DNA from: Bacteroidota bacterium
GTDB taxonomy: Bacteria; Bacteroidota; Ignavibacteria; Kapaibacteriales; NICIL-2
Direction of reading: 5' to 3'
NCBI GenBank assembly: GCA_019695345.1
Contig: JAIBAE010000029.1
Span: 1 to 46,918, forward strand
Length of the DNA: 46,918 bases
Position numbers and translations under genes: made by a program. Position 1 is the stretch's first letter. Every line of letters begins with the position of its first letter. The notes under the pieces are model-generated. The model was not told where the DNA came from, searched no databases, and worked only from the letters and a program-made list of their open reading frames with translations. Positions 2,061 through 45,980 of the stretch are shown piece after piece.

Positions 2061-2130
2061 CTTGCGAAGCTGTAATGGTTTTTCCCGACCGTGTTGCGGC
2101 GCTGAAGAGTTGCTACGGCAGTGGCGGGGC
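2061..2130 (+). repeat. Structured repeat family B, copy B1
   Basis: Matches the family B pattern: CTTGCGAAGCTGTA, then TTCCCGACCGTGTTGCGGCGCTG, then TTGCTACGGCAGTGGCGGGG. A short stem CCG...CGG encloses the GTGTTG loop. It lies 90 nt upstream of the ABC transporter start, an exception to the usual 3'-flank position of this family. Confidence 0.8.
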
Positions 2131-2220
2131 ACCCTATATTTTATATCCTGTTTGTGTAGCACCCAACTTCGTGTTATTTTGAACATGTTGGTTATACGTT
2201 GAATTCATTTCGGGAATCTG

Positions 2221-5262: not shown

Positions 5263-5332
5263 CTTGCGCCGCGCAACGCTTGGCTCGCACCGGGTTGGCG
5301 CACTGAAGGATTGCTTCGGCAAATGCGGGAAA
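5263..5332 (+). repeat. Structured repeat family B, copy B2
   Basis: Reads CTTGCGCCGCGCAACGC, CTCGCACCGGGTTGGCGCACTGAAGGA, TTGCTTCGGCAAATGCGGGAAA. The small stem is CGC...GCG here instead of CCG...CGG. It ends 5 nt from the stop codon of the minus-strand T9SS gene, so on that gene's strand it forms the immediate 3' flank. Confidence 0.8.
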
Positions 5333-5337
5333 CCCTG

Positions 5338-7716: not shown

Positions 7717-7795
7717 GTTGTTATACTATTCATTTACCCTGCGTGGTTGCACGACGAAAATACCATCTTCATATTAATTAATAGTGTAGTATTTG

Positions 7796-7857
7796 TTTGC
7801 TATCGCGCGACGGCACCGAACGGCAAACAAAACACTTCCATTTCTTTGCCGGAGAAA
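7796..7857 (+). repeat. Structured repeat family A, copy A2 (within the 7717-8378 gap)
   Basis: Reads TTTGCTATCGCGCGACGGCACCGA, a loop, then TTTGCCGGAGAAA. The stem is CGGCA (7811-7815) with TGCCG (7847-7851). The 660-bp gap in which it lies holds no convincing gene. It contains, in order, A2, a lone D-type terminal repeat, MITE-like C1, a small GACGCGA palindrome and A3. Confidence 0.8.
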
Positions 7858-8308: not shown

Positions 8309-8370
8309 TTCTCTCCCGCAAGCTGTTGGTGTAATTTGGTAAACGTGCGGTGCGGTCTTGCGATAGCAAA
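8309..8370 (-). repeat. Structured repeat family A, copy A3
   Basis: On the minus strand it reads TTTGCTATCGCAAGACCGCACCGCACG, a loop, then TTGCGGGAGAGAA. The stem is CCGCA with TGCGG (plus-strand 8316-8320 and 8351-8355). It starts about 9 nt after the stop of hpnE, on the same strand. Confidence 0.85.
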
Positions 8371-8378
8371 CAACACAA

Positions 8379-11845: not shown

Positions 11846-11858
11846 TTTTTTTGTTGTA

Positions 11859-11925
11859 CCCGCCTCTGCTGCAGCAATCCTTCTGCGCCGCAACCCGGTC
11901 GGGACATACCCTTCTGCGTCGCAAA
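11859..11925 (-). repeat. Structured repeat family B, copy B3
   Basis: On the plus strand it reads ACCCGCCTCTGCTGCAGCAATCC, GCGCCGCAACCCGGTCGGGA, CTTCTGCGTCGCA. It directly follows the flavoprotein gene, with the same orientation relative to the gene as B2, B4, B7 and B8. Confidence 0.78.
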
Positions 11926-13674: not shown

Positions 13675-13745
13675 CCTGCGTAGCACAACGCTCGGTTCGC
13701 GCCGGGTCTGCGCGCTGGCGGGTTGCTTCGGCAACTGCGGGAATC
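13675..13745 (+). repeat. Structured repeat family B, copy B4
   Basis: Reads CCTGCGTAGCACAACGCTCGG, TTCGCGCCGGGTCTGCGCGCTGG, TTGCTTCGGCAACTGCGGGAATC. The small stem is GCGC...GCGC here. It ends 2 nt from the stop codon (13747-13749) of the DUF4397 gene on the minus strand. Confidence 0.8.
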
Positions 13746-16400: not shown

Positions 16401-16414
16401 CATTCCCCTTTGTA

Positions 16415-16475
16415 TTTGCTACCGCAGACCGCACCGAGTGGCAACCATTACAAAACCTCACTGTGCGGGAGAGAA
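16415..16475 (+). repeat. Structured repeat family A, copy A4
   Basis: Reads TTTGCTACCGCAGACCGCACCGAG, a loop, then CTGTGCGGGAGAGAA. The stem is CCGCAC (16429-16434) with GTGCGG (16463-16468), six perfect pairs. It lies on the same strand as and directly behind the alkyltransferase gene. A further conserved box, ATCGTGAAG, follows at about 16499. Confidence 0.85.
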
Positions 16476-16587: not shown

Positions 16588-16656
16588 GACTTATAAGCGA
16601 ATCTATAATAAATATTCAATCAACATAAGCATAAATAACTCTGATGCCATGTATTA

Positions 16657-17238
16657 CTAAATTGCTGGAACCAATATTTTATAGGGTAATTCACTATTTT
16701 TTGTATAAATAATTTGATAAACTTCACCTGTTTTTGTAGTATCAACTTTAACATTTTTTTCTGGTGTGGATGATACCCACCAACATCTACCATAAACTAC
16801 TGAGTCTCTAGTATACTGGTATATTGCGCAAGGCTTAACCTTTAGATTTGAATCAAGCACACCTAATGGTACTTCCGTTGCATTCACAACTTTAAGAATA
16901 AATCCATTATTTGGAGTTATTTCATAATATTCATAGGTTGTTAGATGATTTTCTAAATTGTTGTTTTTTGTAACTTTAAGAAAGTTGCCAAACTTATATT
17001 CTACTGTTGTACCATTAATTGTTGTAGCATCCCTGTATTCAATAAATTTTTGAATTCTAAGTGAATCATAGAACTGTGTAGCATGATGCTCATTCCTACT
17101 AAGTGCTACAAACATAAAAATAACGGATAATAGCATTCTTAATAGATAGTAGGCTACAACACAAATGATTGCAACAATAATTGCAAGAAATGTATAAGTA
17201 CCAATTTCATCAAACAAATCTCTAGTATTCCAATTCAT
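16657..17238 (-). CDS. Hypothetical single-pass membrane protein (193 aa)
   Basis: One or two hydrophobic segments span about residues 14-45 (TYTFLAIIVAIICVVAYYLLRMLLSVIFMFVAL). A soluble C-terminal domain of about 145 residues follows, rich in beta-strand-forming residues (VEYKFGNFLKVTKN, YEYYEITPNNGFILKVVN, VYGRCWWVSS). There is no signal peptidase site, so it is probably an inner-membrane anchor with the C-terminal domain on one face. The family is not recognised. The gene is AT-rich and stands alone between the hairpin at 16564 and the structured gap at 17239-17584. Confidence 0.7.
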   Translation of the reverse strand: MNWNTRDLFDEIGTYTFLAIIVAIICVVAYYLLRMLLSVIFMFVALSRNEHHATQFYDSLRIQKFIEYRDATTINGTTVEYKFGNFLKVTKNNNLENHLTTYEYYEITPNNGFILKVVNATEVPLGVLDSNLKVKPCAIYQYTRDSVVYGRCWWVSSTPEKNVKVDTTKTGEVYQIIYTKNSELPYKILVPAI

Positions 17239-17415
17239 TATAATATTAGTTGGTTAGTTACTCTAGCATTTGCATAGTCAAAAAGTTGATTTGAATAAGT
17301 GGATGTTAATAACAACATCATTATTCCCCTCATAACTCCTCCAAAAAATTAAGTTGATATAACAAGGCAAGGATAATCATATCCTACACCAATAAATTGA
17401 GTACTTAAAAAATGG

Positions 17416-17460
17416 ATGAGAGCCGTATGCACCAAACTAATCCCCTTGTGGTGCACTCAT
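17416..17460. other. Unassigned hairpin in the 17239-17584 gap
   Basis: ATGAG (17416-17420) pairs with CTCAT (17456-17460), and TGCACCA (17428-17434) pairs with TGGTGCA (17449-17455). The two helices are separated by a 7-nt one-sided bulge AGCCGTA, and the apical loop is 14 nt. A smaller GGAT/ATCC hairpin lies near 17370. Nothing else is visible in this 345-bp gap except the terminator at 17543. Confidence 0.5.
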
Positions 17461-17542
17461 CGGTTGGTATTTCTTAGGATGTTCAAATCTAACTATTTTT
17501 TGTAACCCACAAAATTTATTATCGGTTACATACCAAACAAAA

Positions 17543-17566
17543 AAGGCATGAGGGAACTCATGCCTT
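17543..17566 (-). terminator. Intrinsic terminator of the 17585-18250 gene
   Basis: On the minus strand, AAGGCATGAG-TTCC-CTCATGCCTT is followed by a T-rich tail (TTTTGTTTGG). The 10-bp perfect stem, short loop and position about 18 nt after the stop make this a good terminator. Confidence 0.85.
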
Positions 17567-17584
17567 GACAATAAAAATGTCTAA

Positions 17585-18250
17585 TTAACTTTCAACCTTG
17601 TAACTTTCAAGATCACCCCAGTTCTTTCCAGTTTCATCTTCTAATCGAATTGGACCTATTCCAGGAGCGAAATAAATAAAAAAATCATAAACACCAGTTG
17701 AACGACCTTTGAGGTCAAAGCCATACTTTATACATTTAAAAGTTCCAGCAGGTACAGTTACAGAAATTTGGGTTTCAAACACTTTTACTGATGTTGCATT
17801 ATCATCACCTAAGTCAAACTTAGCCAGGTATACGTCATTTAATTTAGCTGGATAAAGCCATAATATCCTTGGAACAAACGATGTTATTTTTGTTAAATCT
17901 TTTAACTCACCAATAAAGTACCCTTCCTCTAAATTGGCTACATAGGTATATTTAGGATTATTATCTGCACCACCTAAAAAGCAAAACCCAATATATGTTC
18001 CATTAGTGTTATTACTAGTAGTTCCACTAATACTGTAATAAGTATCTTTTCCAATTTGTAACTTTCCTGTAGTTGATATGAATACAGTATCATATCCATT
18101 TGTGGAGTTTTTACTAATGTATTTCCAATTATTCCCAACACGAAGCGGTATAATTTGTTTAGTGGGGGTAACTACTGTGTTGTTATTTATACTGTTATCA
18201 GAACATGAAACAAATAGAGCGGCGAGAAGTAGAATAGTAACGTGTCTCAT
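17585..18250 (-). CDS. Hypothetical lipoprotein (221 aa)
   Basis: The N-terminus MRHVTILLLAALFVSCSDN contains a lipobox (LFVSC) with Cys16 as the lipid-attachment residue. The mature domain begins with a segment PLRVGNNWKYISKN that is common in Bacteroidota lipoproteins of roughly 200 residues. It continues with beta-rich sequence ending FFIYFAPGIGPIRLEDETG. The pattern 'GNxWxY ... VPAGTFKCIKY ... YFAPGIGxI' matches a widespread exported family of unknown function that I can describe but not name. It is probably periplasmic. It is monocistronic, with its own terminator at 17543. Confidence 0.78.
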   Translation of the reverse strand: MRHVTILLLAALFVSCSDNSINNNTVVTPTKQIIPLRVGNNWKYISKNSTNGYDTVFISTTGKLQIGKDTYYSISGTTSNNTNGTYIGFCFLGGADNNPKYTYVANLEEGYFIGELKDLTKITSFVPRILWLYPAKLNDVYLAKFDLGDDNATSVKVFETQISVTVPAGTFKCIKYGFDLKGRSTGVYDFFIYFAPGIGPIRLEDETGKNWGDLESYKVES

Positions 18251-18473
18251 ATCAAGGTTTTAGATTGTGCATAATACATAGCAAAAATAACTATGAAACC
18301 ATACCACCCAACACATTTTTGGCATTACCGCAGGGTACTATTATACCTGTTTAAGGCTGTATGCCTTGCGCTTGCCGTGAAATGGATTCGTGATATTATT
18401 ACATTCAAACAATTTAGTCTATAATAAATAGCTTTTGAGCATTTAGCTGATTGACTTATTCTATATTGGTTTG

Positions 18474-19154
18474 TTAGAGAGTGATACCACTATTTATATT
18501 CAATTTCTTCTTTAAATCATCTGTAAGATTTTCCCACTCTCGTGTATATGTTGACTTTGCCATAGGATCTGAATGAAGTATGTCATCAATTTCAATCTTA
18601 CTTTTAGCAATTTTATTACTCAATTCTGTAAGTTCATTTTGATAGTCAACATCTGGGATATTGTTGTGAGATAAATTAGTTATTTTATACTGAAGTGTTG
18701 TACAAAATAGCAAACCTAATTTATAGGCCCGTTTAAATTCTTCCCTTACATCTACAGCATGAATACAAGAATTTACCTCACATAGAACATGAAATCTATC
18801 TAATAGCTCGTTTAACTTTTTTACAATTTTTATTATGCTAGTTCTTCGCTTTTCTAACTCTACGTGGTCATTTGTATTTTCACGAACTTGTTTCCTGAGA
18901 TCTGAATCAAATCTTAGATTATGTATATAAAATCGTATCTCATAAAATAAAGTCAATATCTCTTTTACATTTTGTATATCTATATCATATCGCTTTTGCG
19001 TATACCATGAATTATAGGATTTCCAAGCAACAACAAAAGCTATTATAGCTACAAGTGTACCTATTAATTTTGAGAACCAATCTATAGTATCCTTAATTGT
19101 AGTCCATGGCCATGCCATAACCCAATTGTAAAAAGCATCAAATATAGACATCAT
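18474..19154 (-). CDS. Hypothetical membrane-anchored coiled-coil protein (226 aa)
   Basis: A transmembrane segment lies at about residues 30-47 (LIGTLVAIIAFVVAWKSY), preceded by a short amphipathic Trp-rich N-terminus. It is followed by a long, mainly helical cytosolic part with heptad-like stretches (about 60-130 and 185-215) and scattered Cys residues. No enzymatic motif is seen. A clear Shine-Dalgarno sequence AAGGAG lies 6 nt before the ATG at 19154, unusual for this genome and supportive of the chosen start. The gene is divergent from another single-pass membrane protein (19247-20041), and the pair may be functionally linked. The 18251-18473 gap holds no recognisable feature. Confidence 0.68.
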   Translation of the reverse strand: MMSIFDAFYNWVMAWPWTTIKDTIDWFSKLIGTLVAIIAFVVAWKSYNSWYTQKRYDIDIQNVKEILTLFYEIRFYIHNLRFDSDLRKQVRENTNDHVELEKRRTSIIKIVKKLNELLDRFHVLCEVNSCIHAVDVREEFKRAYKLGLLFCTTLQYKITNLSHNNIPDVDYQNELTELSNKIAKSKIEIDDILHSDPMAKSTYTREWENLTDDLKKKLNINSGITL

Positions 19155-19246
19155 AGTATGCTCCTTGATATGTAATATGTAGATTGTAACCTAATGGTAA
19201 AAATAGCGTCAAAAGCATAAATCATTACAATATTATTACTTACAAT

Positions 19247-20041
19247 ATGAGTTATACTCAGTCTCAAAAAGATGTAATCAATTTCATTAACAGGAATCCC
19301 AATGGTATAACTATACATGATTATCTTTATTACAGAGCATCATCTATCGAGCCTGAAGTAGTAAAATTACCTTTATATTCTAAGCCTAAACTTTTGAAAG
19401 TTCAATTGAGGGGTAAAGCTGGCACTTATCTACTGTCTTTTAGCAACGAAGATAGATCAACAATGCATCAAATAATTTCAGACTATTTTTTGATCTCACG
19501 TGACTTAAACAACAAGGGGCTAATAACTGTTACAATGGATGATACAAGCAAGTTTATAGAACTGTTAAAAGTGCCACAATCACATAGTATTGATAGCCCT
19601 ACATTACAAACAACTGAACAATTAGCAACAGAGTTATTTTTTCCAAGTAATTTAAGTCCTGATAAGTTGAATGAACTTATTGAAATGCACAGTGATATTC
19701 TGTTTAAAATTGGATTTAGTGGAGTTAATGCAACAAGGAAAAATGAATTACTTTTTCCATTACCAGGTCTCTCAACCTATATAAACAACAACTATCAAAC
19801 CGACTCAGAGGTTCAGGCAAAACAACTCATAATATACTCAAGAAACAACTTACTGATTGCAATTGGAGCTGTACTTGTCTCAGCCGGAGTATCACTTTAT
19901 ACCACATATAAGAACTCCGATATTCGCAAAGTAATTTATACAGAGTTCCAAGATACATTGTTGGTAAAACAGGTTCCATTACCAAAGGATACTTCTAAAA
20001 CAACAGTTAAGATTGATAGTGCTAAAAAGGTCTCCCCCTAA
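19247..20041 (+). CDS. Hypothetical protein with C-terminal membrane anchor (264 aa)
   Basis: The first 190 residues are soluble. The opening (QSQKDVINFINRNPNGITIHDYLYY) could form a small winged-helix or helical domain, and a mixed region up to SGVNATRKNELLFPLPG follows. One transmembrane helix spans about 202-222 (NNLLIAIGAVLVSAGVSLYTTY), with about 40 residues behind it ending in Lys/Ser-rich sequence. No signal peptide is present. It is divergent from the coiled-coil membrane protein gene (93 nt between starts). The stop codon overlaps the end of a minus-strand coding relic (20038-20148). Function unknown. Confidence 0.68.
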   Translation: MSYTQSQKDVINFINRNPNGITIHDYLYYRASSIEPEVVKLPLYSKPKLLKVQLRGKAGTYLLSFSNEDRSTMHQIISDYFLISRDLNNKGLITVTMDDTSKFIELLKVPQSHSIDSPTLQTTEQLATELFFPSNLSPDKLNELIEMHSDILFKIGFSGVNATRKNELLFPLPGLSTYINNNYQTDSEVQAKQLIIYSRNNLLIAIGAVLVSAGVSLYTTYKNSDIRKVIYTEFQDTLLVKQVPLPKDTSKTTVKIDSAKKVSP

Positions 20042-20148
20042 TTCTCAGCAATAACATCTTCAATCCCCGATTCAAGCGCGGCGATTTCAGAAATGAAGTC
20101 ATCGTGTTTTGTTTTTTTGAGTAGAATATTTACTTCAATTATTGCGAA
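20038..20148 (-). pseudogene. C-terminal relic of an unknown protein
   Basis: The minus-strand frame encodes 36 residues ending in TAG: AIIEVNILLKKTKHDDF and ISEIAALESGIEDVIAEN form the body. The composition is convincingly protein-like, with alternating charged and hydrophobic helix-forming residues. It runs without a stop out of family B copy B5, so an older gene appears to have been cut by that element. No start codon of its own was found and the family is unknown. It overlaps the stop of the plus-strand gene by 4 nt. Confidence 0.45.
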
Positions 20149-20212
20149 GCTGTACCGATTGGTTCCGACCGGGTTGCGGCGCTGTATGGGTTGTTTCGGC
20201 AGAGGCGGGAAA
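20141..20212 (+). repeat. Structured repeat family B, copy B5 (left of a direct-repeat pair)
   Basis: Reads ATTGCGAAGCTGTACCGATT, GGTTCCGACCGGGTTGCGGC, GCTGTATGGGTTGTTTCGGC, AGAGGCGGGAAA. It differs from B6 (23304-23376) at only a few positions. The two bracket the 20299-23295 gene in direct orientation. Confidence 0.88.
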
Positions 20213-20298
20213 CTAAGAGTAAGATACCTGAAACATTATTCTGTATTTTAGATTATTGATGTAGAGTACATGATGTTCCAATTTCCTTGACTTGCCTT

Positions 20299-23295
20299 AT
20301 GAAAAGTTTATACGCATTTCTTTTTGTTGTTACTTCGTTTATTGGTGTTGCCCAAACATGGGAACAGATTGGTCCGACTGATATTGATGGCAAAGGTTTA
20401 GGCATGGGAGCCATTCACAATATTAAAATCAACCCGTGGAACCCAAACACAATTTATATTTCATCGAGAACTGGCGGACTCTGGGTTAGCCGTGACGCCG
20501 GCAGCAGTTGGCGGTCGTTATCGGATTCGTTGCCTAACTTGGACATCTGTGATTTCCATGTTCATAAATCTGATACAAACAAGATAACCGTACTTGTTGA
20601 TTTAAAGATTCCCGGAAACGGTAGTGGTGATTTCATGTACTCAACAACTAATTCCGGGTTAACGTGGTTGCCCGTAAAATTTACTGGTGGATATATTGGA
20701 AATCCTACCAAAATGATATGTGATGATAGAATGTTTTCCGTTTCTGATAACAGGTATTATCCAGACTATCGCTATAATGGCAAGATATATGTTTACCGCT
20801 TTGGCGATTTAATGGCAAAGACAATTGGTACTAGCCAAATTGGACCTATCAAAGATTTTATCTGGAAACCAAATACAGTAGCCGGGCAGTACATACAAAG
20901 TTCAGATAAGTTTTACCGTACACTGGATTCAGGCAGAACTTTTAAGTATGATAGCATACCTATTTGGGGAAAGCAAACTCCCAAGTTAGAAGTAACCTTA
21001 GCAGATACTAAACGCGTGTACGCATTAGCAATTAACGATACAGGTGCGAGTACAGGTTTATATGTTACAAGAAACGAAGGCACTTCGTGGTCTGCAATTC
21101 CAATGCAAAAAAGTATCAACCTATTAGGAACAGATATAGCAGGTTCCTCAACAACAGGTACAGGGAAACAGAATGTTTGTTTTAGAGTTTCCCCTACCGA
21201 TACAAATTTGATATTTGTTGGCGGCAAATATCTATGGAGGTCAAGCGATGCAGGTTATACATGGGAAAATGTTTCTATAACACATGGCAATTCATTATCG
21301 TACACGATTTATACAATTGAGATGTCACCATTACTACCCAACAGAGTATTTGTAGGAACATCGCGCGGTGTTTTTGTTAGTACTGATTATGGTGTAACGT
21401 GGAAATCAAGCAATAATAAGTTAGTGAATGCTGATTTTGTAAGCATGGAAGTTGCCAAAACTAAGGATGTGGTAATTATCGCTTCTACGGAAACAAGTAC
21501 AATCAGATACGAGAATAACAAATGGACTTATACTTCTGATTCTGTTTTTAAGTACTTTGCAACATTCAAAGCTCACAAGAATGTGTTTTATGGTATTACG
21601 AGAAACAATGTGCTTTTGCGTTCAAATGATACAGCAAAGACATGGAACGTAATTAATACTCCACAAGGTTCTGTGTATTATGCAGATAGACCATTTTGCT
21701 TTAATACACAAAACCCACAAACAATATATGCGGCACTTTCAGATGTATGGAAAACATCAGATGGTGGTGAAACATGGCTAAAACATTCTACGCCTTTTAG
21801 TGCAGTTACTGTTGCTATAGCAATGTCAGAAACAGATACAAATCAGATACTTCTATTTAGCCAAAACAACGCTGTTAGTAGTTCTAAAAACGGCGGAATA
21901 ACATGGGATTTTTTGTATGCCTTCAGTGATGGTAACCCAGGACCAAAACTCATTATTCCACATCCAAAACAATTTGGACAATATTACATTGCATCTGGTG
22001 TAAGTCCAGACGAACAAGAAGTATATCTATCAAATAACTCAGGTCGGAACTGGGGGAAAATTAGCACGTTACATGTTTATCAAGGTTTAAACAAGATAAT
22101 AAATTCGTTAGCATTGCAAACAGACGCTTGTGGTGAAACCGTATACATTGCAACAAATCACGGGGTTCATGCTATAGTAACAAATCGTGATATATTCAGG
22201 GATAAGGTGATTTTAAATTCAGGAATACCACCAGTGAATAGTTCGGCAATAGTTTACGTTAACGGCAATTTGTATAACGCAACAAATGGGTTGGGTTTGT
22301 GGAAGTATAAGGCACCTTACATAGGTCCTCAGGCGCAGTACCTACAAGACAAGAATGAAATTTGTCCAGGTGAAACAATTCAGTTTACTAACACCTCTTT
22401 GTTTAATGATACTCAAGAATGGGAGTTTGAAGAAGGTACACCACCGCGCTCAGAAGAACCAAATCCAATAGTTTTTTATACAAAGCCGGGTACACATAAT
22501 GTTAAACTACGTGCTAGTGTATTATGTGGAACTGATACAATCTTGCTATCCTCGGTTATTGTACTACCTATATTGAAGTCGGCATTACAAGTTAATACTA
22601 ACACTGTATGTTTGGGTGATACGGTGTTTGTGAGGAACACCACTATTGGCGATCATACTCCGGAATGGAGTTGTACCTCTCAGGATTCATTATTAGGTAA
22701 CAATACACTACGCTACTTAGTCCCTACATCAAAAGGTACAGTACGTTTTTCTTTGAAGGTCTCAAATTCGTGTGGCACGAGTACTACATCGCAATCTATT
22801 ATGGTTATTGATTCTATACCCCACTATGCAATTCAAAACACGAACAATGTACTAAGTGTACCATTTACATCGGGCTATAATTATCAATGGTATGCAAATG
22901 GTTTACTAATACCGTCGGCAACGGCTTCAAGCTTCGCCGTAGCATTTAGTGGCACATATCATGTTGTGGTTATGAATGCCGCGGGTTGTAAAGCATCATC
23001 GGATACTATATCTGTTCAAACTACCGGAATTGAAGTTACCAATAACGATGCCGTTTCAGTTGCACCAAATCCAATTGGTGATGAAGTGGTAGTTGCTGTT
23101 CAATGTAACAATGTAGCTCTTTCAAAAATTGAAGTGTACTCAATTAATGGGATACTAATGTTCAGGCAACATGTGCAAGCTGATACAACACCGGGCTCCT
23201 ATTTTATTCCATGTTCAACATTACGTACCGGAACATACATAGTACGACTGACTACCAGTTCTGGAATACTGTACAAAAAGATTCTGAAATATTAA
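20299..23295 (+). CDS. Large T9SS-secreted Asp-box/PKD protein (998 aa)
   Basis: I chose the start at 20299 because MKSLYAFLFVVTSFIGVAQ then forms a clean signal peptide (cleavage after GVA). The upstream in-frame ATG at 20287 only adds MTCL. Residues about 20-650 contain roughly ten Asp-box variants (SRDAGSSWRS, SSDAGYTWEN, STDYGVTWKS, TSDGGETWLK, KNGGITWDF), indicating one or two sortilin-type beta-propellers. A PKD-like domain follows (ICPGETIQFTNTS ... PGTHNVKLRAS), then an Ig-like repeat (CLGDTVFVRNTT) and a YQWYANGLLIPSA module. The C-terminal T9SS sorting domain has VAPNPIGDEV, MFRQHVQ and RTGTYIVRLTTSSGILYKKI. It is expected to be secreted and surface-bound. The ligand is unknown. The gene is bracketed by direct repeats B5 and B6. 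Confidence 0.87.
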   Translation: MKSLYAFLFVVTSFIGVAQTWEQIGPTDIDGKGLGMGAIHNIKINPWNPNTIYISSRTGGLWVSRDAGSSWRSLSDSLPNLDICDFHVHKSDTNKITVLVDLKIPGNGSGDFMYSTTNSGLTWLPVKFTGGYIGNPTKMICDDRMFSVSDNRYYPDYRYNGKIYVYRFGDLMAKTIGTSQIGPIKDFIWKPNTVAGQYIQSSDKFYRTLDSGRTFKYDSIPIWGKQTPKLEVTLADTKRVYALAINDTGASTGLYVTRNEGTSWSAIPMQKSINLLGTDIAGSSTTGTGKQNVCFRVSPTDTNLIFVGGKYLWRSSDAGYTWENVSITHGNSLSYTIYTIEMSPLLPNRVFVGTSRGVFVSTDYGVTWKSSNNKLVNADFVSMEVAKTKDVVIIASTETSTIRYENNKWTYTSDSVFKYFATFKAHKNVFYGITRNNVLLRSNDTAKTWNVINTPQGSVYYADRPFCFNTQNPQTIYAALSDVWKTSDGGETWLKHSTPFSAVTVAIAMSETDTNQILLFSQNNAVSSSKNGGITWDFLYAFSDGNPGPKLIIPHPKQFGQYYIASGVSPDEQEVYLSNNSGRNWGKISTLHVYQGLNKIINSLALQTDACGETVYIATNHGVHAIVTNRDIFRDKVILNSGIPPVNSSAIVYVNGNLYNATNGLGLWKYKAPYIGPQAQYLQDKNEICPGETIQFTNTSLFNDTQEWEFEEGTPPRSEEPNPIVFYTKPGTHNVKLRASVLCGTDTILLSSVIVLPILKSALQVNTNTVCLGDTVFVRNTTIGDHTPEWSCTSQDSLLGNNTLRYLVPTSKGTVRFSLKVSNSCGTSTTSQSIMVIDSIPHYAIQNTNNVLSVPFTSGYNYQWYANGLLIPSATASSFAVAFSGTYHVVVMNAAGCKASSDTISVQTTGIEVTNNDAVSVAPNPIGDEVVVAVQCNNVALSKIEVYSINGILMFRQHVQADTTPGSYFIPCSTLRTGTYIVRLTTSSGILYKKILKY

Positions 23296-23303
23296 TTGGT
23301 ATT

Positions 23304-23376
23304 ACTTGCGAAGTTGTACCGATTGGTTCCGACCGGGTTGCGGCGCTGTATGGGTTGCTTCGGCAGAGGCGGAAAT
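23304..23376 (+). repeat. Structured repeat family B, copy B6 (right of a direct-repeat pair)
   Basis: Nearly identical to B5. It begins 8 nt after the stop of the T9SS gene. CGAAG (near 23309) can pair with CTTCG (near 23358), and the inner stem CCG-GGTTG-CGG is preserved. Confidence 0.88.
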
Positions 23377-23391
23377 CATGTTTAAAACAAA

Positions 23392-23421: not shown

Positions 23422-23424
23422 GTG

Positions 23425-23496
23425 TGATCCCAACGGGATTCGAACCCGTACTGCCACCTTGAAAGGGTGGTGACCTAACCATTAGTCGATGGGACC
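23425..23496 (-). tRNA. tRNA-Glu (anticodon TTC)
   Basis: The 72-nt cloverleaf has acceptor GGTCCCA/TGGGATC (one G-T pair) with discriminator A. The D-arm contains GGTTAGG. The anticodon arm is CCACC-CTTTCAA-GGTGG with anticodon TTC. The T-arm is CGGG-TTCGAAT-CCCG. The CCA end is not encoded. It is preceded by a Bacteroidota-type promoter and followed by a terminator, so it is a monocistronic tRNA gene divergent from coaE. Confidence 0.97.
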
Positions 23497-23607: not shown

Positions 23608-24288
23608 ATGAGCCACGAAACCGAGCCGAATGAACGGGATGAAAAACGTATAGTTGTAATAGGTATTACCGGTAACATAGGGTGCGGTAAATCGGAAGTT
23701 GCAACTCTCTTGCGTGCCAAGGGTTGTACCGTATTAAGCTCCGACGAGACTGCCAAACGGTTGATGAATGAAAATGCCGAAGTGCGCGATAAACTTAAAG
23801 AAGTTTTTGGTATAGATGTTTTTACAATCAACGGTACAATTAACAAGGAATTTTTGGCTAAGAAAGTTTTTGGTGAATCACCAGATAACCGTAAGTACTT
23901 GGAAACGCTAAATTCTATTGTTCACCCTGCCGTGTTAGATGAACATGTTCGCCAGATTCGTGAATTTGAACAAGCAGGGTTATCGCATCTGTTTATTGAA
24001 AGTGCGCTTATTTACGAGGTAGAAATTGAAGATGCCTTTGATTACATTGTAGTTGTGGATGCACCCGAAGATGTTCGTATTGCTCGGGCAATGCAACGCG
24101 ATAAGGGTACAGAGGCGCAGATTAGAGCCAGAATGGAAAACCAACTTGATGCAAACCAAAAGAAAAGTTGGGCAGATTTTACCATTGATAACTCAGGCAC
24201 AAAAGAACAATTAGAAACATCCGTTAACTTCCTTTATCCAATTTTTCTCACCCTCCCGCCAACTTCCTTAGTAGAAGATGAGGAGTAA
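23608..24288 (+). CDS. coaE: Dephospho-CoA kinase
   Basis: This 226-aa cytoplasmic kinase performs the last step of coenzyme A synthesis, ATP-dependent phosphorylation of the 3'-hydroxyl of dephospho-CoA. The P-loop is GNIGCGKS at residues 22-29, preceded by the strand VVIGIT. The substrate-region segment LSSDETAKRLM follows (about 44-54), in place of the usual sDxIA. SIVHPAV near 108-114 and FIESALIYEVEIEDAFDYIVVVDAP are characteristic of the CoaE lid and core. Length is normal apart from an extra charged N-terminal 14 residues, so a start further in is possible, although no better ATG is seen. The helix-hairpin-helix gene follows 20 nt downstream. Its pathway relative panB lies 1.4 kb further on, on the same strand. 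Confidence 0.93.
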   Translation: MSHETEPNERDEKRIVVIGITGNIGCGKSEVATLLRAKGCTVLSSDETAKRLMNENAEVRDKLKEVFGIDVFTINGTINKEFLAKKVFGESPDNRKYLETLNSIVHPAVLDEHVRQIREFEQAGLSHLFIESALIYEVEIEDAFDYIVVVDAPEDVRIARAMQRDKGTEAQIRARMENQLDANQKKSWADFTIDNSGTKEQLETSVNFLYPIFLTLPPTSLVEDEE

Positions 24289-28214: not shown

Positions 28215-28646
28215 ATGACGTACAGTTCGATGTTTTTAGGTATAATTCTCATGTTTATAGGTGGATACGGATTTGCTTCTTCCAAACTTGGTGGTATGAA
28301 TTTACCGTTAATGGAGAAATTGGGGAATCCCGGTATAGAACCACAGTTTATTATACCATTGGTATTGGGTGCTATATATATTGCAACAGGTGTATTAAGC
28401 GTAAACGAAAAGCGCAGAATGACCATGTTACAAATTGCATTAGGGGTAACAGCATTGTTTATTATTCTAACAATACCCGACGTAATACATGTAATACAAT
28501 GGGTATCCAATAATACGTATGTTCAGTTACCACCACTACTCCGTGCCGAATCTTGCATGGTAGCAGTTATCTTTGGATTATTCGGTATCCGTGCTTTACG
28601 TAAATATGCAAAGGCAGTTCAGCAACCTGTTCCTACACAGGAATAA
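28215..28646 (+). CDS. Hypothetical four-helix inner-membrane protein (143 aa)
   Basis: Four hydrophobic segments are visible: about residues 5-22 (SMFLGIILMFIGGYGFAS), 43-60 (FIIPLVLGAIYIATGVLS), 70-88 (MLQIALGVTALFIILTIPD) and 110-124 (ESCMVAVIFGLFGIRA). Short loops separate them, with a charged C-terminus. The build resembles small DoxX/DUF-type membrane proteins, but no diagnostic motif is present. It is divergent from the thioredoxin-like lipoprotein (94 nt between starts). Family A copy A6 starts 4 nt after the stop codon. Confidence 0.72.
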   Translation: MTYSSMFLGIILMFIGGYGFASSKLGGMNLPLMEKLGNPGIEPQFIIPLVLGAIYIATGVLSVNEKRRMTMLQIALGVTALFIILTIPDVIHVIQWVSNNTYVQLPPLLRAESCMVAVIFGLFGIRALRKYAKAVQQPVPTQE

Positions 28647-28649
28647 TTG

Positions 28650-28713
28650 TTTGCTATCGCAGACTGCACCGAACCAAACTGTATCAGCATACGTTGGTAT
28701 TGCAGATAAGAAC
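28650..28713 (+). repeat. Structured repeat family A, copy A6 (compensated stem)
   Basis: Reads TTTGCTATCGCAGACTGCACCGAACC, a loop, then TTGCAGATAAGAA. The stem here is CTGCA (28664-28668) with TGCAG (28701-28705): the second pair is T-A where other copies have C-G or G-C. This copy is the key evidence that pairing is conserved. Confidence 0.8.
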
Positions 28714-31025: not shown

Positions 31026-32213
31026 ATGCACACACTTTCACAGCGTGTATTATCTGCTTCGGAATCGCAAACGTTAGCAATAGCTGCGCGGGCAAAGCAG
31101 ATGAAAAAATCAGGATTAGATGTTATCAGTCTATCTACAGGCGAACCTGATTTTGCTACACCGGAGTGTGCTAAACAAGCCGCATACAAAGCAATCGAGC
31201 AAAACTTTACGCACTATACCGAATCCAACGGCATTCCCGAATTACGCGCCGCCGTTGCACAAAAATTTATCCGCGATAACAACATTCTTGGCGCGTACGA
31301 ATCCACGATACTCATATCGTGTGGTGCAAAACACAGCATCATGAATGTACTCAACGCTATTTGTAATCCCGGCGATGAAGTAATTGTGATTGCACCATAC
31401 TGGGTAAGTTATCCTGCAATGGCAACAGTAGCCGGGGCAACTCCGGTTATCATCAACACAACAGCAGAACAATCCTTTAAGGTTACCGCGGAACAATTAC
31501 AACAGGCGCTAAGTACAAAAACTAAATGTGTCATCTTTAACTCGCCAAGTAATCCAACGGGTATGATGTACACACGTCAGGAATTCGACGCAATTGCAAA
31601 CGTGCTTGCCCCGCACGATTGCTACATTCTCAGCGATGAGATATACGAGAAAATACACTACGGCATACATCCACACATTAGTTTGGGTTCATATCCGCAG
31701 TTAGCAGGCAGAGTCATTACCGTTAATGGTTGCTCCAAAGCGTATGCCATGACGGGATGGCGAATCGGTTTTATGAATGCACCTAAGGAAGTATTCGAAC
31801 AAGCCGCCAAAATTCAAAGTCAGGATACTTCTAATCCTACATCAATAGCGCAACAAGCCGCACTTGCTGCGTTACTTCATGCAGACGATGATGTAGAAAC
31901 AATGCGCATGGAATTTTCGCGCCGTCGGGATTTGGTTTGTGGACTTGTGGACGCAATCGGGGGCGTTCGCTTTCTTCAGCCCGACGGTGCGTTTTATTTA
32001 TGGGTAGATATTTCAACTATCCTCAGTAATAATTCAACCGTTACAACTGCAAGCGATTTTTGCCAACTCCTCCTCGATAAACATTATCTGGCACTTGTAC
32101 CCGGCGAGGCATTCGGAACAAATGGTTACGTCCGTTTTTCGTTTGCCGCTAACGACCACGACATCACGCAAGGTGTTCAGCGGTTTGCTCAACTTTGTAC
32201 AGATTTATCATAA
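31026..32213 (+). CDS. Class I/II PLP-dependent aminotransferase, aspartate aminotransferase type
   Basis: This 395-aa cytoplasmic fold-type I enzyme would move amino groups between an amino acid, probably aspartate, and 2-oxoglutarate. The PLP lysine lies in SKAYAMTGWRIG (237-248, Lys238). NSPSNPTGMMY (172-182) supplies the Asn of the cofactor site, SDEIYEKI (203-210) the Asp and Tyr, and VRFSFA near the C-terminus the carboxylate-binding Arg. N-terminal SLSTGEPDFATPE (36-48) is typical of the I-gamma aspartate (AspB) subgroup. Substrate choice cannot be read with certainty, and prephenate or aromatic activity also occurs in this subgroup. It is monocistronic. Family B copy B7 begins directly after the stop. 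Confidence 0.92.
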   Translation: MHTLSQRVLSASESQTLAIAARAKQMKKSGLDVISLSTGEPDFATPECAKQAAYKAIEQNFTHYTESNGIPELRAAVAQKFIRDNNILGAYESTILISCGAKHSIMNVLNAICNPGDEVIVIAPYWVSYPAMATVAGATPVIINTTAEQSFKVTAEQLQQALSTKTKCVIFNSPSNPTGMMYTRQEFDAIANVLAPHDCYILSDEIYEKIHYGIHPHISLGSYPQLAGRVITVNGCSKAYAMTGWRIGFMNAPKEVFEQAAKIQSQDTSNPTSIAQQAALAALLHADDDVETMRMEFSRRRDLVCGLVDAIGGVRFLQPDGAFYLWVDISTILSNNSTVTTASDFCQLLLDKHYLALVPGEAFGTNGYVRFSFAANDHDITQGVQRFAQLCTDLS

Positions 32214-32215
32214 GG

Positions 32216-32286
32216 TTCCCCACCTCTGCCGAAGCAATCCTTCAGCACCGCAACCCGGTCGGAACCAACCGTTACAGCATCGCAGA
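32216..32286 (-). repeat. Structured repeat family B, copy B7
   Basis: On the plus strand: TTCCCCACCTCTGCCGAAGCAATCC, CAGCACCGCAACCCGGTCGGAACC, TTACAGCATCGCAG. It begins 3 nt after the aminotransferase stop, in the same gene-relative orientation as B2, B3, B4 and B8. Confidence 0.82.
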
Positions 32287-33343: not shown

Positions 33344-33414
33344 TTTGCGGTGCTACAACGCTTTGCCCCGCCCGTGTGACGGCGCAGTATTGTTTGCTTC
33401 GGCAGAGGAGGGAA
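33344..33414 (+). repeat. Structured repeat family B, copy B8
   Basis: Reads TTTGCGGTGCTACAACGCTT, CCGCCCGTGTGACGGCGCAG, TTGCTTCGGCAGAGGAGGGAA. The inner stem is CGCC-N-GGCG. It lies exactly between two convergent genes, and its last bases reach the stop codon (33415-33417) of the ROK gene. Confidence 0.75.
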
Positions 33415-34374
33415 TCACAAATTTTGAATTGACTGCTTTCCTAACACAGCCGCACCAACAATTCCCGCATGATTGGTAAAATGCGCCTTCCGCACTACAA
33501 CCTCCGGAGCGATAGTTTGCAACGCACGTTGCTGCAATGTTTGATGCGTAGTTTGCAACAGAATATCATGCGACTGCGAAATGCCTCCGCCAACAATTAC
33601 CACGCGCATATCCAGCACAGCCAACACCGAAGCAATTCCCAAACCCAGAAGTTTACCCGTTTGCTGTAACGTTTGTAACGCCGCAATATCGTTGGTATGT
33701 GCCGACTCGGAAATATGATGAACATCCAAATCATCTCCATAAGCATGTAACATCGAGTTGGGGTGTTCGGCGGCGATGTGCTTTGCCATAGTTATCAAAC
33801 CATTTCTACCAATGTACTCTTCCAGAACTCCTGCCCTGAAACTGCGCCCACTGTTACGCTGTTCATCGGTTGGCTCGGTGAACGCATTCACAATAACATG
33901 TCCTATCTCACCCGCCCCTCCGCGCTCACCTGTGAACAACTTCTTATCAATAATAATTGCACCGCCAACACCTGTTCCAAGCGTAACATATAAAAAATGC
34001 GAATCATTTCTTCCCGCACCAAAAGCACTCTCGGCAAGACCTGCCACATTAGCATCGTTATCAATGGCAACAGGCACAGCCAAGCTTTGCTGTAGTATCT
34101 CTTGCAACGGAACTACATCCCAACCAGGCATATTAGGCGGGTAGTACACGCACTTGTTCTGCGGGTTCACCACCGATGGAAACCCAATGCCAACAGATTG
34201 CAGCCCAACATGTTGTTCGTGCAATTGCACCGTAATATTTTTCAACGTGGCAATTACAGCTTCCTTGCCCAGATGCGCATTGGTAGGCATACTATCTTGC
34301 CACACAATCTTCCCGTCGGAATCAATTATTCCAAACTTGATATTTGTTCCGCCAACATCAATTCCACCAAACAT
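33415..34374 (-). CDS. ROK-family sugar kinase lacking the zinc-finger cysteines
   Basis: The 319-aa cytoplasmic protein has the ATP-binding start GGIDVGGTNIKFGIID (3-18) and the catalytic-Asp segment AIDNDANVAGLAE (103-115). The phosphate loop LGTGVGGAIII (132-142) and AGEIGHVIVN (154-163) with its His are also present. This is the build of glucokinase or N-acetylhexosamine kinase. The CXCGXXGC zinc motif that normally follows GEIGH and precedes the LExY helix is missing. The corresponding stretch reads NAFTEPTDEQRNSGRSFRAGVLEEYIG, longer and without cysteine. The enzyme may fold without zinc, as in some ROK subgroups. Substrate uncertain; glucose is the default guess. Confidence 0.87.
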   Translation of the reverse strand: MFGGIDVGGTNIKFGIIDSDGKIVWQDSMPTNAHLGKEAVIATLKNITVQLHEQHVGLQSVGIGFPSVVNPQNKCVYYPPNMPGWDVVPLQEILQQSLAVPVAIDNDANVAGLAESAFGAGRNDSHFLYVTLGTGVGGAIIIDKKLFTGERGGAGEIGHVIVNAFTEPTDEQRNSGRSFRAGVLEEYIGRNGLITMAKHIAAEHPNSMLHAYGDDLDVHHISESAHTNDIAALQTLQQTGKLLGLGIASVLAVLDMRVVIVGGGISQSHDILLQTTHQTLQQRALQTIAPEVVVRKAHFTNHAGIVGAAVLGKQSIQNL

Positions 34375-34417
34375 AGGTTCCTTTGCAATAAGTCTTGTGC
34401 AATAATACAGAATATGT

Positions 34418-34500
34418 TTTTGCTATCGCAATCGGCACCTAACCTTTGCTATTGGGCAGAAATTTTTCTGCCCCTACAAACCACATCTTGCCGGAAAGAA
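34418..34500 (+). repeat. Structured repeat family A, copy A7 with nested hairpin (within the 34375-34684 gap)
   Basis: Reads TTTTTGCTATCGCAATCGGCACC ... TCTTGCCGGAAAGAA. The stem is CGGCA (34433-34437) with TGCCG (34489-34493). The loop is longer than in other copies and contains a perfect 9-bp hairpin GGGCAGAAA-TT-TTTCTGCCC (34454-34473), probably a second small element inserted in the loop. A7 and MITE D1 together occupy this gap. Confidence 0.8.
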
Positions 34501-34545: not shown

Positions 34546-34664
34546 CCTGCCGTCTGCTTTAGCGGGCGGACGAGAATAACTCACACAGAACGGACTTAGC
34601 CAAATATTGTATTTCTAAATTACTTTTTTACAAAGTCTATCCGTCAGCTAAAGCAGACGGCAAG
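34546..34664. mobile_element. MITE-like element D1
   Basis: The ends CCTGCCGTCTGCTTTAGCGGG and CGTCAGCTAAAGCAGACGGCAAG are inverted repeats of about 23 bp. The interior (GAATAACTCACACAGAACGG...) matches D2 at 43826-43956. Similarity to D2 continues beyond the right end through ATACGCCTTATCTATGTGTA to about 34715, into the 3' end of the small membrane-protein gene. No transposase is present. Confidence 0.72.
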
Positions 34665-34684
34665 TAGGAACAAAAAAATACGCC

Positions 34685-34987
34685 TTATCTATGTGTAGCT
34701 TTTATTGGGACAAGCTCGTTTAGTATAAGAGTTAGTATCGCGATTAAAGCGTGTGAGAAAAGTAAAAAAGTAGTTAAGGAGTATAACATTATTAATGTAT
34801 TAATGTAACGTTTCTCTAAACTATTTTGTGTTTGATTTCGATATCTAATCAGTCTAAATATACTGAGTTTATTAGCGGGTCCTAAATAAAATCCTAGTTT
34901 CGACACTACATCTATAACCCTTGTAGTTATCATAGCAAGAAAAATAGTGATTACGAAACCAGTAATAATAGCAATGATCAATCCCAT
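34685..34987 (-). CDS. Hypothetical small membrane protein (100 aa)
   Basis: The start is placed at 34987 (MGLIIAIITGFVITIFLAMI). The longer reading from 35044 runs into repeat E1 and is less credible. Two hydrophobic segments (about 2-24 and 68-92) are separated by a basic loop (FRLIRYRNQTQNSLEKRYIN). The last residues LVPIKATHR are encoded by sequence shared with the D2 region at 43985-44012, so the natural C-terminus of this protein may have been replaced or formed by a repeat insertion. AT-rich; function unknown. It belongs to the cassette-like island 34546-36900. Confidence 0.6.
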   Translation of the reverse strand: MGLIIAIITGFVITIFLAMITTRVIDVVSKLGFYLGPANKLSIFRLIRYRNQTQNSLEKRYINTLIMLYSLTTFLLFSHALIAILTLILNELVPIKATHR

Positions 34988-35042
34988 TTTATAATCTTTG
35001 TTTATTGATAAAAATGTCCAAATTATTATGTCTTGTCTGGAC

Positions 35043-35147
35043 ATTCAAACGAAGTGCATTCACCTGACGCATCCGTTACATTGCGCATGAATCATTAGTA
35101 TGATGCCCCTTCCCCTCACAGACACAAGAAGTCACACCGGAACTACA
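35043..35147 (-). repeat. Cassette-associated repeat E, copy E1
   Basis: Two conserved blocks: TTCAAACGAAGTGCATT...GACGCATCCGTTACATTGCGC (35044-35086) and ATGCCCCTTCCCCTCACAGACACAAGAAGTCACACCGGAACTACAA (35103-35147). The same pair of blocks occurs in E3 (45165-45280), and the first block also in E2. It lies between two minus-strand genes. Confidence 0.78.
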
Positions 35148-35264
35148 AATATGATATCATCATTTTTCTTAGTTGTTGGGTTATATCATAGCGTGCAACA
35201 TTGTGACTATATTTATCAGCATGGCACTATTAATTCCAATCCAATATTCCTATCATATTGTGGA

Positions 35265-35843
35265 CTAACGTTTCGTTGCGTATTCAGGATAAATACCTAT
35301 AGATATAACTTTCCATACTTTGGATTTTAGAAAATATATACTATTGATAACTATATGGTCTTGTTTATCTAAAATTAATGCCTTTGGAATTAGCTTTTTT
35401 TCTATTTCACTATTTCTATTGATGATTATTACAGAGTCCTTAAAATATGTGTCAATTGTCTTCACATCAGCTGGTCTCACTACGCAGCAAAAATTATCTG
35501 CTAAGTTGTGTCGATGAATATAACGTAAATCATCTTCAATAACATAGTTATTATAAGTTAGCAAAACTATGTTATACTTTTCATCTGAAATTTTTTTGAA
35601 TAAATTAATAGCGGTTGAATCTCTTTCCAATTGAGAATTTCGATTATAAATAGAAAAATCAAATTTAGTAGTATCAGATAATAGTAATAGCAATTGACTT
35701 TCAGTTGTACATATTTTTATTTGATTGTAAATGAGTTTGGTAAATGCTATAGCATTTACAGAATCCATTTTCATTGTAGCATCAGATTGAGCATAGCTAT
35801 GACTTGAAGTCATTAGGGCTAAAATATACAGCAGTTTTTTCAT
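35265..35843 (-). CDS. Hypothetical exported protein (192 aa)
   Basis: The start at 35843 gives MKKLLYILALMTSSHSYAQ, a standard signal peptide (cleavage after SYA). An upstream MT adds two residues only. The mature protein is about 173 residues, Asn/Asp/Ile-rich. The middle part YNIVLLTYNNYVIEDDLRYIHRHN and the end IPKALILDKQDHIVINSIYF recall the strand order of thioredoxin-fold or TlpA-like proteins, but no CXXC is present and Cys residues are at FCCVV. The assignment stays open. E1 flanks it on the 3' side and E2 on the 5' side, as expected for a cassette. Confidence 0.68.
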   Translation of the reverse strand: MKKLLYILALMTSSHSYAQSDATMKMDSVNAIAFTKLIYNQIKICTTESQLLLLLSDTTKFDFSIYNRNSQLERDSTAINLFKKISDEKYNIVLLTYNNYVIEDDLRYIHRHNLADNFCCVVRPADVKTIDTYFKDSVIIINRNSEIEKKLIPKALILDKQDHIVINSIYFLKSKVWKVISIGIYPEYATKR

Positions 35844-35873
35844 AGTCAATTTTTATTAACTTACTTTATGTCT

Positions 35874-35928
35874 CGTCAGGACTTCCAAACGAAGTGCGGG
35901 CGTCCTGACGTATCCGTTACATTGCGCT
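35874..35928 (-). repeat. Cassette-associated repeat E, copy E2 (first block only)
   Basis: CGTCAGGACTTCCAAACGAA, GTGCGGGCGTCCTGACG, TATCCGTTACATTGCGCT. CGTCAGGAC and GTCCTGACG form a perfect 9-bp stem with a 19-nt loop. It lies just upstream of the 35843 start. The 308-bp gap to the next gene (35844-36151) contains this repeat, a GGCATGAG hairpin at 36009 and nothing else recognised. Confidence 0.78.
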
Positions 35929-36008
35929 CAGAATCATCAGTTTCACACTCTTTGCAGACTCGGGAAATTAAACTGGAAAATTTGAAATTATTTAAAAGAT
36001 GTAATGCC

Positions 36009-36036
36009 GGCATGAGCACTTCGTTGAACTCATGCC
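36009..36036. terminator. Hairpin GGCATGAG/CTCATGCC downstream of the 36152 gene
   Basis: An 8-bp perfect stem with a 12-nt loop shares its stem sequence with the hairpins at 16564 and 17543. No strong T-run is present, so it may be a diverged terminator or a repeat unit. Confidence 0.45.
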
Positions 36037-36151
36037 TGAACTTAAATTCCATCACTAACAGTAGAACACCATTCGCACACTCTATAAGTCGTATGAGTAC
36101 TGAAAAAGAAGTTCTACTTCAATAGACTGAAATAAAATTTTATAGTAAACA

Positions 36152-36658
36152 TTATTGATACTTTAACATTATTATATGATTACTTCCATCACTTTCAACT
36201 AAACAATCAATTATATCTTCAACATTTTGTACACCAAATACAATTAATCTATTTTGGAATCCTTCTATATCCACACCTTTGAAATAAAAATAAACATCAG
36301 TTAATCCATTTTCTATTTTTTTTAACTCAATCTTTAAAATTGAAGTTCTATCTATTTCAGTTACCTTTGATAACAAATTATTATATATTACAATACCCGA
36401 TTTGGTAATCAAATAATCAGTCATTAAATACGATATCATATGTATAATGAATAGGACTATAACACTCCAAAACACTAGATGTATTATTATTTTTACAGTA
36501 GACTCGAAATCTTCATTAGAAAAATAAAGAATATAGATTAGAGGGGTTATGAGTAAAGAATAAATCCATATGTTAAAAAATAATGCTCGAATAAATTTGG
36601 ATTTACCACTCCAAATAATATCTTTTTGTGTTGGAAACTGAGTTTTGTTGTATAACAT
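36152..36658 (-). CDS. Hypothetical two-helix membrane protein with PH-like domain (168 aa)
   Basis: Two transmembrane helices lie at about residues 27-47 (FFNIWIYSLLITPLIYILYF) and 57-80 (IIIHLVFWSVIVLFIIHMISYLM). They are followed by YLITKSGIVIYNNLLSKVTEIDRTSILKIELKK and a further strand-rich segment ending IMLKYQ. The order 'two helices, then YxIT..GI.IY........I....I..IE' is the typical build of bacterial PH-domain (YdbT/YdbS-like) membrane proteins. The fit is reasonable but not searched. It follows the coding relic at 36725-36898 by 66 nt and may be an accessory or immunity-type gene of the island. Confidence 0.66.
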   Translation of the reverse strand: MLYNKTQFPTQKDIIWSGKSKFIRALFFNIWIYSLLITPLIYILYFSNEDFESTVKIIIHLVFWSVIVLFIIHMISYLMTDYLITKSGIVIYNNLLSKVTEIDRTSILKIELKKIENGLTDVYFYFKGVDIEGFQNRLIVFGVQNVEDIIDCLVESDGSNHIIMLKYQ

Positions 36659-36724
36659 AAATTCACGAAACAGAATGAATTAATTCGGAATACCTAGAAT
36701 AACGAAGCATGGATTAATATAAGA

Positions 36725-36898
36725 TCATACAACATTCCACAATGCCTTCACAGCTTGTGCAGTAGCATTGTCTAAATTAACTTTTGCGCTTTTCAGTTCC
36801 GTCAGAACTTCCTTATTCTGCGAAGGGCATCCTGCTGTGGTTGTGTTTTTTATAACATCAAAGGTTGTTTGATGAACTGTACAATAATACTTAATTCT
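36725..36898 (-). pseudogene. C-terminal coding relic F1 (57 codons)
   Basis: An open minus-strand frame of 57 codons without a proper start ends in TGA at 36725. It reads YYCTVHQTTFDVIKN, then TTTAGCPSQNKEVLTELKS, then AKVNLDNATAQAVKALWNVV, a convincing amphipathic C-terminal helix. The first part is related to relic F2 (45981-46094: CTVYQSIVDVLNKH). It is probably the tail of a larger gene removed by recombination. It lies between family A copy A8 and the PH-like membrane gene, inside the 420-bp gap 36659-37078. Confidence 0.5.
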
Positions 36899-36943
36899 TC
36901 AGTACAAACTTCACGGTAATGGTACAATTATACTTGCACAACG

Positions 36944-37004
36944 TTCTTTCCCGCATGGCAAGGATGTATAGGAGTTGAGGCGTGGTGCGGTCATGCGATA
37001 GCAG
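36944..37004 (-). repeat. Structured repeat family A, copy A8
   Basis: On the minus strand: CTGCTATCGCATGACCGCACCACGC, a loop, then CATGCGGGAAAGAA. The stem is CCGCA with TGCGG (plus 36951-36955 and 36986-36990). It follows the outer-membrane factor gene and its terminator. The trailing ACCGTGAAG box continues into relic F1. Confidence 0.85.
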
Positions 37005-37023
37005 AATATCTACCCTTTATAAA

Positions 37024-43825: not shown

Positions 43826-43956
43826 CTGTCTGCTTTAGCGGACGGACAAGAATAATTCACACAGAACGGCTTTAACCAAACAAAATTCATGAAAATGTTT
43901 TTGACTAAAGTCATGTTGTTGTACCCCCTTTCATCCGTCAGCTAAAGCAGACGGCA
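43826..43956. mobile_element. MITE-like element D2
   Basis: The ends ACTGTCTGCTTTAGCGGACGG and CCGTCAGCTAAAGCAGACGG are inverted repeats. The inner part shares GAATAATTCACACAGAACGG with D1. Shared sequence continues to about 44012 and encodes the same minus-strand peptide tail LVPIKATHR as the 34685 gene, here without an attached gene. Confidence 0.72.
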
Positions 43957-44541: not shown

Positions 44542-44551
44542 ACTATTTTTA

Positions 44552-45977: not shown

Positions 45978-45980
45978 AAA

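Follow-up and report, generated by a model that had tools for sequence, protein, structure and literature searches.

Likeness between close, same-strand copies of a ~70-bp intergenic repeat in a Kapaibacteriales draft genome, including a pair around a surface-protein gene

In an uncultured bacterium of the Kapaibacteriales (Bacteroidota bacterium, Ignavibacteria, NICIL-2; GenBank assembly GCA_019695345.1), a gene for a large surface protein has on either side a copy of a short repeat, here called B. The two copies are almost the same, and the question raised by this locus is why these two copies resemble each other so closely. The stretch of DNA analysed, referred to as the window (contig JAIBAE010000029.1, positions 1–46,918; C19 in our contig numbering), belongs to a 4.56-Mb draft genome of 163 contigs that is 99.9% complete. 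The nearest named relative found was a Candidatus Kapaibacterium metagenome-assembled genome, whose CoaE is 56% identical, and the 40 relatives used for comparison all lie outside the genus of this organism.

Likeness of neighbouring B copies

The left copy, B5 (20142–20211, plus strand; matched by the covariance model R1 at 20141–20213 with 92.0 bits), and the right copy, B6 (23306–23375, plus strand; 23305–23377, 88.1 bits), are equal at 67 of 70 positions, the differences being C/T at position 9, T/C at 53 and G/A at 68. They stand in direct orientation, 3164 bp apart from start to start, and enclose exactly one gene (20299–23295, plus strand), whose ATG at 20299 is separated from B5 by 87 nt and whose stop at 23295 is separated from B6 by 10 nt. 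The product is predicted to be a secreted surface protein of 998 aa with a sortilin/VPS10-type BNR propeller, a PKD domain and a type A C-terminal sorting domain of the type IX secretion system (T9SS; PF18962, 29.3 bits, cut-off 27; TIGR04183, 37.9, cut-off 23). The labels B5 and B6 fit the earlier numbering, as the window contains eight B copies.

Model R1 was built from 42 copies and matched at least 150 copies in the genome, all at E ≤ 4.5e-15; 195 copies were counted at E ≤ 1e-3 in 118 stretches of the genome plus the window. When 13 partial copies had been dropped, 182 near-full-length ones remained, giving 16,471 pairs with a median identity of 70% and a 99.9th percentile of 90.6%, among which B5/B6 ranked third. 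Ranked above it were a pair on contig C142 and a pair with one member at an end of contig C134 and the other at an end of C136. Among the best 40 of 192 candidates, the next-best full-length match to B5 was 88% identical, and three partial matches of 47–53 bp reached 91%. The preliminary description of this locus had noted that B5 and B6 differ at only a few positions, far fewer than other copies do, and that they flank a surface-protein gene of about 3 kb in direct orientation; both observations hold.

The likeness of B5 and B6 is nearly restricted to the repeat. When the two copies were aligned with 400 bp of flanking sequence, only 18 bp beyond B, on the left side, could be aligned, at about two thirds identity, and nothing further matched in these flanks. 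A segmental duplication of the region was accordingly rejected, the flanks being unrelated while the B copies are 96% identical: a longer duplicated piece as recent as this identity requires is excluded because the likeness stops at or near the B borders. The same explanation was rejected for the C142 pair (same strand, 9290 bp apart, 98.6% over 71 bp), whose likeness also ends at the B borders. It was accepted for a pair on contig C163, which, unlike B5/B6, aligns over 470 bp at 94%; there (L168, 1–12836) B, 400 bp beside it (94%) and a neighbouring minus-strand gene are duplicated, the two proteins being 66% identical.

B5/B6 is one case of a genome-wide tendency, in that B copies which are both near each other and on the same strand are alike. 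For a permutation analysis with 5000 shuffles, 149 strong copies served as the main set and 33 weaker full-length ones were set aside. Same-strand pairs less than 10 kb apart (n = 28) had a mean identity of 0.792 as against 0.717 in the permuted data (p = 0.0002; none of the 5000 shuffles was as high), and four of them reached an identity of at least 0.90 where 0.04 were expected. Opposite-strand pairs at the same distance showed no such excess (n = 27, mean 0.718, p = 0.45), and the two kinds of neighbour differed in a rank test (p = 0.0017). At 10–20 kb and at 20–40 kb the effect was not significant. It persisted when five contigs were left out (C163 with the segmental duplication, C136 with a tandem-like arrangement, C19 with the B5/B6 pair, C142 and C120; n = 22, 0.767 versus 0.716, p = 0.0002), and it was also found with all 182 copies (same-strand n = 37, 0.765 versus 0.692, p = 0.0002). 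With this larger set the mean for opposite-strand neighbours dropped under the average (n = 70, 0.654), which is due at least in part to the way weak copies came to light, always next to strong ones. Between contigs, the contig-end pair C134/C136 (0.971) was the only one above 0.928, and recent likeness is therefore mostly local.

Probable recombination between direct neighbours, and its alternatives

We consider it probable that recombination between close copies in the same orientation homogenises them and that the likeness of B5 and B6 arose in this way. Gene conversion, or else duplication followed by deletion or unequal sister exchange, would act on close direct copies, and the same exchanges may occasionally delete or amplify the gene that such copies bracket. 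The proposal in the preliminary description of a gene conversion or a duplication is thus retained in its first half, as conversion or a related exchange that reflects a genome-wide tendency and not a one-off event, and abandoned in its second half, as the unrelated flanks speak against segmental duplication. Some local pairs have the mosaic look that conversion or hybrid exchange would leave: identity was 100% in columns 1–36 and 64% outside for a pair on C17, 98% in columns 2–45 and 64% outside on C11, 100% in columns 19–49 and 71% outside on C25, and 97% in columns 7–36 and 74% outside on C13. The longest matching run of a local direct pair tended to exceed that of a pair from different contigs (n = 26, with C163 and C136 left out, p = 5.5e-5).

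Several points weigh against this explanation. With total identity held fixed, the mosaic pattern was not significant overall (26 pairs, combined p = 0.15; B5/B6 and the C142 pair, which had no comparators, entered as p = 1), and our claim for recombination is kept low for this reason; taken singly, the pairs on C17 (p = 0.007) and C25 (p = 0.025) passed and that on C11 (p = 0.058) did not quite. Below 5 kb, and with the five top contigs removed, the excess of identity was not significant (n = 7, p = 0.07). Because copies were collected in the vicinity of the 150 best model matches, weak ones are under-sampled, and in a draft of 163 contigs errors in the assembly of repeats are possible. Finally, ordinary RecA-dependent conversion is expected to act on inverted neighbours too, and none was seen there; the lack of an effect on inverted neighbours would favour unequal sister exchange or duplication and deletion over simple conversion.

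Unlikely, though the best placed of the alternatives, is that new B copies insert near the copy they derive from and keep its orientation, perhaps by way of a single-stranded intermediate at a replication fork. Such local copying would produce the same likeness, confined to direct neighbours and with unrelated flanks, and it would suit two further results: in B5/B6 and in the pair on C142 identity extends throughout the element, and the overall mosaic test was not significant. Moreover, the genome contains matches to the Y1 transposase family PF01797, one covering the whole model in an uninterrupted frame of 211 codons and a partial one in a frame of 194 codons. However, among strong copies, neighbours within 10 kb are equally common on the same strand (28) and on opposite strands (27), and when all copies are considered 37 of 38 pairs less than 1 kb apart are inverted, so that a rule of same-strand insertion is not visible; recent distant copies are also few. 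The complete Y1 gene, coding for a predicted transposase (206-aa open reading frame (ORF), L185 2903–3523, contig C123), has no B within ~2.8 kb in the 6.5 kb examined, the nearest copy lying beyond another ORF, and for three Y1 matches, loci of ~3.3 kb contained no B. Further matches are broken (C53) or partial (C55), and the degraded one in C53 has a B ~1.8 kb away; a link between Y1 transposase and B was sought around the Y1 matches and not found. We infer that recombination is probably the process at work, with local copying as its main competitor.

Improbable, to a greater degree, is that the surface-protein gene is a cassette that came in, or goes out, in the form of a circle with one B, which recombined with a resident B to give the order B5–gene–B6. 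It is physically possible that a crossover between B5 and B6 would remove exactly the 998-aa gene and leave one B. The restriction to direct pairs, the unrelated flanks and the exact enclosure of a single gene agree with this, and in three relatives (G012, G030 and G005) no BNR match lay within 15 kb of coaE among the matches listed. The top pairs on C120, C163 and C142 also enclose T9SS-type ORFs, a recurrence that might be taken in favour of a cassette: the C120 pair encloses a related BNR protein (23% identity, sorting-domain score 26.5, cut-off 27), the C163 pair a 1496-aa HYR/T9SS protein, and the C142 pair a 165-aa T9SS-tailed protein. Yet the C142 pair also holds regulatory and metabolic genes (a response regulator, a histidine kinase, a GRAS/methyltransferase-like protein and an aminotransferase, besides a 739-aa protein without a Pfam match), and a pair on C11 holds an UvrA-like gene. 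An empty site, a circle or a second site was not seen in this comparison, which did not include close strains. In the sister genome G002 the best homologues, the top one with 33% identity, are two genes on contig C587 that have no B in the 9 kb examined. The GC content of the gene (38.3%) is, in addition, close to that of the window (39.2%).

The contig of G002 that carries coaE starts 145 bp before this gene, and a further scan of contigs for the locus yielded two distant loci. In six family members the right-hand neighbour of the C142 pair is conserved (55–67% identity), no match to the left-hand neighbour was found at E ≤ 1e-10, and none of the enclosed genes lay within ~1.5 kb beside the conserved right neighbour. 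At the end of C136 (L173, 5840–6721), B together with ~40 bp of the 3' end of a gene is repeated on either side of an insert of ~0.6 kb, and a single B with similar flanks stands at the start of C134 (L172, 1–330). These contig ends are possibly the filled and the empty state of one site; the candidate was dropped as undecidable, only ~40 bp of right flank being shared before the contig end.

Very improbable is an artefact of a draft assembler that blended neighbouring repeats, for although there are 163 contigs and one near-identical pair sits at two contig ends (C134 and C136), single, scattered positions tell the copies apart and their flanks are distinct, and a dependence on orientation is not what blending would lead one to expect.

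The B family: fold, position and surroundings

Besides B5 and B6, the window holds B copies at 2061–2132 (plus strand), 5263–5333 (plus), 11855–11925 (minus), 13675–13745 (plus; diverged and outside the 150 best model matches), 32215–32286 (minus; its 3' end lies ~3 nt from the stop of the plus-strand gene 31026–32213) and 33344–33416 (plus; its 3' end lies at the stop of the minus-strand gene 33415–34374). From this density the genome probably contains several hundred copies. Among the 40 relatives, with the best 120 candidates per genome considered, G002 had two copies and G005 one weak match (E = 9e-4); in 147 other genomes of the phylum, searched with strict filters and 33 candidates scored per genome, there was none at E ≤ 1e-6. 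Rfam gave no match in 20050–20300 at E ≤ 1, and at gathering thresholds it recognised two tRNAs only in the window. Among the papers on Kapabacteria and repeats that were listed, none presented such repeats in its title or at the start of its abstract. B appears to be an unusual, lineage-restricted family of ~70-bp intergenic, foldable repeats resembling repetitive extragenic palindromes (REPs).

The hairpin of B was revealed by alignment only, and folding of single sequences gave no stability beyond that expected from composition (five folds, z from −0.34 to 1.11). In the alignment of 182 copies, which are to be counted as sequences and not as independent events, columns 23–26 pair with columns 37, 36, 35 and 33, and column 34 is bulged; the loop so enclosed mostly reads CCGGGT. 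The stem occurs in five compensatory types (CCGC/GCGG in 62 copies, CCGA/TCGG in 60, CGCA/TGCG in 35, CGGA/TCCG in 18 and CGCG/CGCG in 6), so that 181 copies are fully paired and the single mispaired one reads CCTA. There is also a small second hairpin, GC-TTCG-GC, whose loop is of the UNCG type in 172 of the 182. Departures from pairing on the printed strand were 26 G-T against 1 A-C for the two inner pairs of the small hairpin and 19 G-T against 4 A-C for a possible outer GCG/CGC stem; one pair farther out in the small hairpin (columns 50/59) the trend was opposite, with 48 C-A against 2 T-G. As to which strand of B would fold, the departures point both ways.

Gene positions were taken from simple longest-ORF calls. 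Among the 195 copies, 25 shared more than 20 bp with a called ORF and 6 had no neighbour in their stretch, leaving 164, of which 105 had an opposing gene on the 3' side; here the median distance from the end of B to the stop codon was 12 nt, and 61% of the distances were at most 15 nt. On the 5' side there were stops in 81 cases, at a median distance of 122 nt and with 7% at most 15 nt away. In most cases the strand of B that carries the UNCG loop is antisense to the gene at whose stop codon B lies. B5 and B6 are exceptions to this orientation, B6 having its 5' end near a stop. Inverted pairs within 1 kb whose members are full-length (n = 28) were unusually dissimilar (mean identity 0.60); a possible cause is selection against long perfect palindromes, another a bias of detection.

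By position and fold, B is probably a 3'-end element of transcripts, as are the REPs of Escherichia coli. The REP/BIME (bacterial interspersed mosaic element) repeats of E. coli are likewise short, intergenic, foldable and multicopy, often lie within 15 nt of stop codons and frequently have inverted neighbours, as do the close B pairs (37 of 38); PMC12306157 cites work in which REPs lower translation, and a similar role for B may be imagined by analogy. In contrast to the 20–40-nt REP palindrome, B is ~70 nt long with a hairpin of 15 nt inside, and it combines this bulged hairpin with the small UNCG-type one, mostly on the antisense strand. Palindromic intergenic repeats are also known as the GTAG and CGTC REP super-families, of which CGTC families have been reported from Chlorobi, Bacteroidetes and other phyla (PMC3733652); B differs from them in having no conserved tag (GTAG in 27 and CGTC in 1 of the 182 copies). 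The REPIN/RAYT systems (PMC3116915) resemble B in so far as close B pairs are mostly inverted and the genome also has a Y1 transposase gene, but the inverted partners are dissimilar and, whereas a RAYT gene is flanked by its repeat, no B adjoins the complete Y1 gene.

On the left, B5 is approached to within ~100 bp by an AT-rich stretch (16600–20040, 31.6% GC versus 39.2% in the window) that ends with a 264-aa ORF without a family match (19247–20041, plus strand). For the four main ORFs of this stretch, NCBIfam and PADLOC gave no match and Pfam a single weak one that stayed under its cut-off, and models of defence systems found nothing in six ORFs of the window, including these four. The preliminary description had taken 20038–20148 (minus strand) for a coding relic and thus for a sign of past rearrangement. 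The frame is indeed open on the minus strand for 65 codons, through B5, and the plus strand is also open, for 69 codons; the 37-residue peptide, however, had no other match in its own genome, no match better than E = 0.56 in the 40 relatives and no Pfam match at E ≤ 1, and this reading finds no support in homology. To the right of B6 follow a tRNA-Glu(ttc) gene (23424–23496, minus strand) and coaE, coding for dephospho-CoA kinase (23608–24288, plus strand).

Farther away, six direct repeats (D2, D3, D4, D6, D7 and D11) link 34552–37006 with 43828–46200 at 72–97% identity, five of them with a spacing of 9.2–9.3 kb and D2 with one of 10.1 kb, which points to a gene cluster that was duplicated long ago together with its spacers. 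A second short repeat family of the type TTTGCTATCGCA...GCACCGAACC (D8, I5), distinct from B, has copies at 7793–7831, 8335–8373, 28641–28675, 34410–34444 and 16406–16440, including an inverted pair 503 bp apart.

Significance

The interest of B lies in its orientation- and distance-dependent likeness, its fold and its place at stop codons. The statistical footprint of a process that depends on orientation and distance, usually sought in series of strains, is here seen on repeats of ~70 bp in one draft genome, and the strict Watson-Crick covariation and tight link to stop codons make B a test case for REP-like roles outside the well-studied groups. The attC sites of integrons are folded sites that lie close after a stop codon and form direct repeats around a gene, and B5 and B6 are alike in this; B differs in being dispersed on many contigs and on both strands (no search was aimed at attC motifs or an integron integrase). 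It is a speculative and rather doubtful proposal that B copies are folded recombination sites and that direct neighbours within ~10 kb repeatedly delete, amplify or swap the genes between them. If this were true, hundreds of B copies would split the genome into units of gene size that are open to exchange, and large genes for T9SS surface proteins would be part of their cargo.

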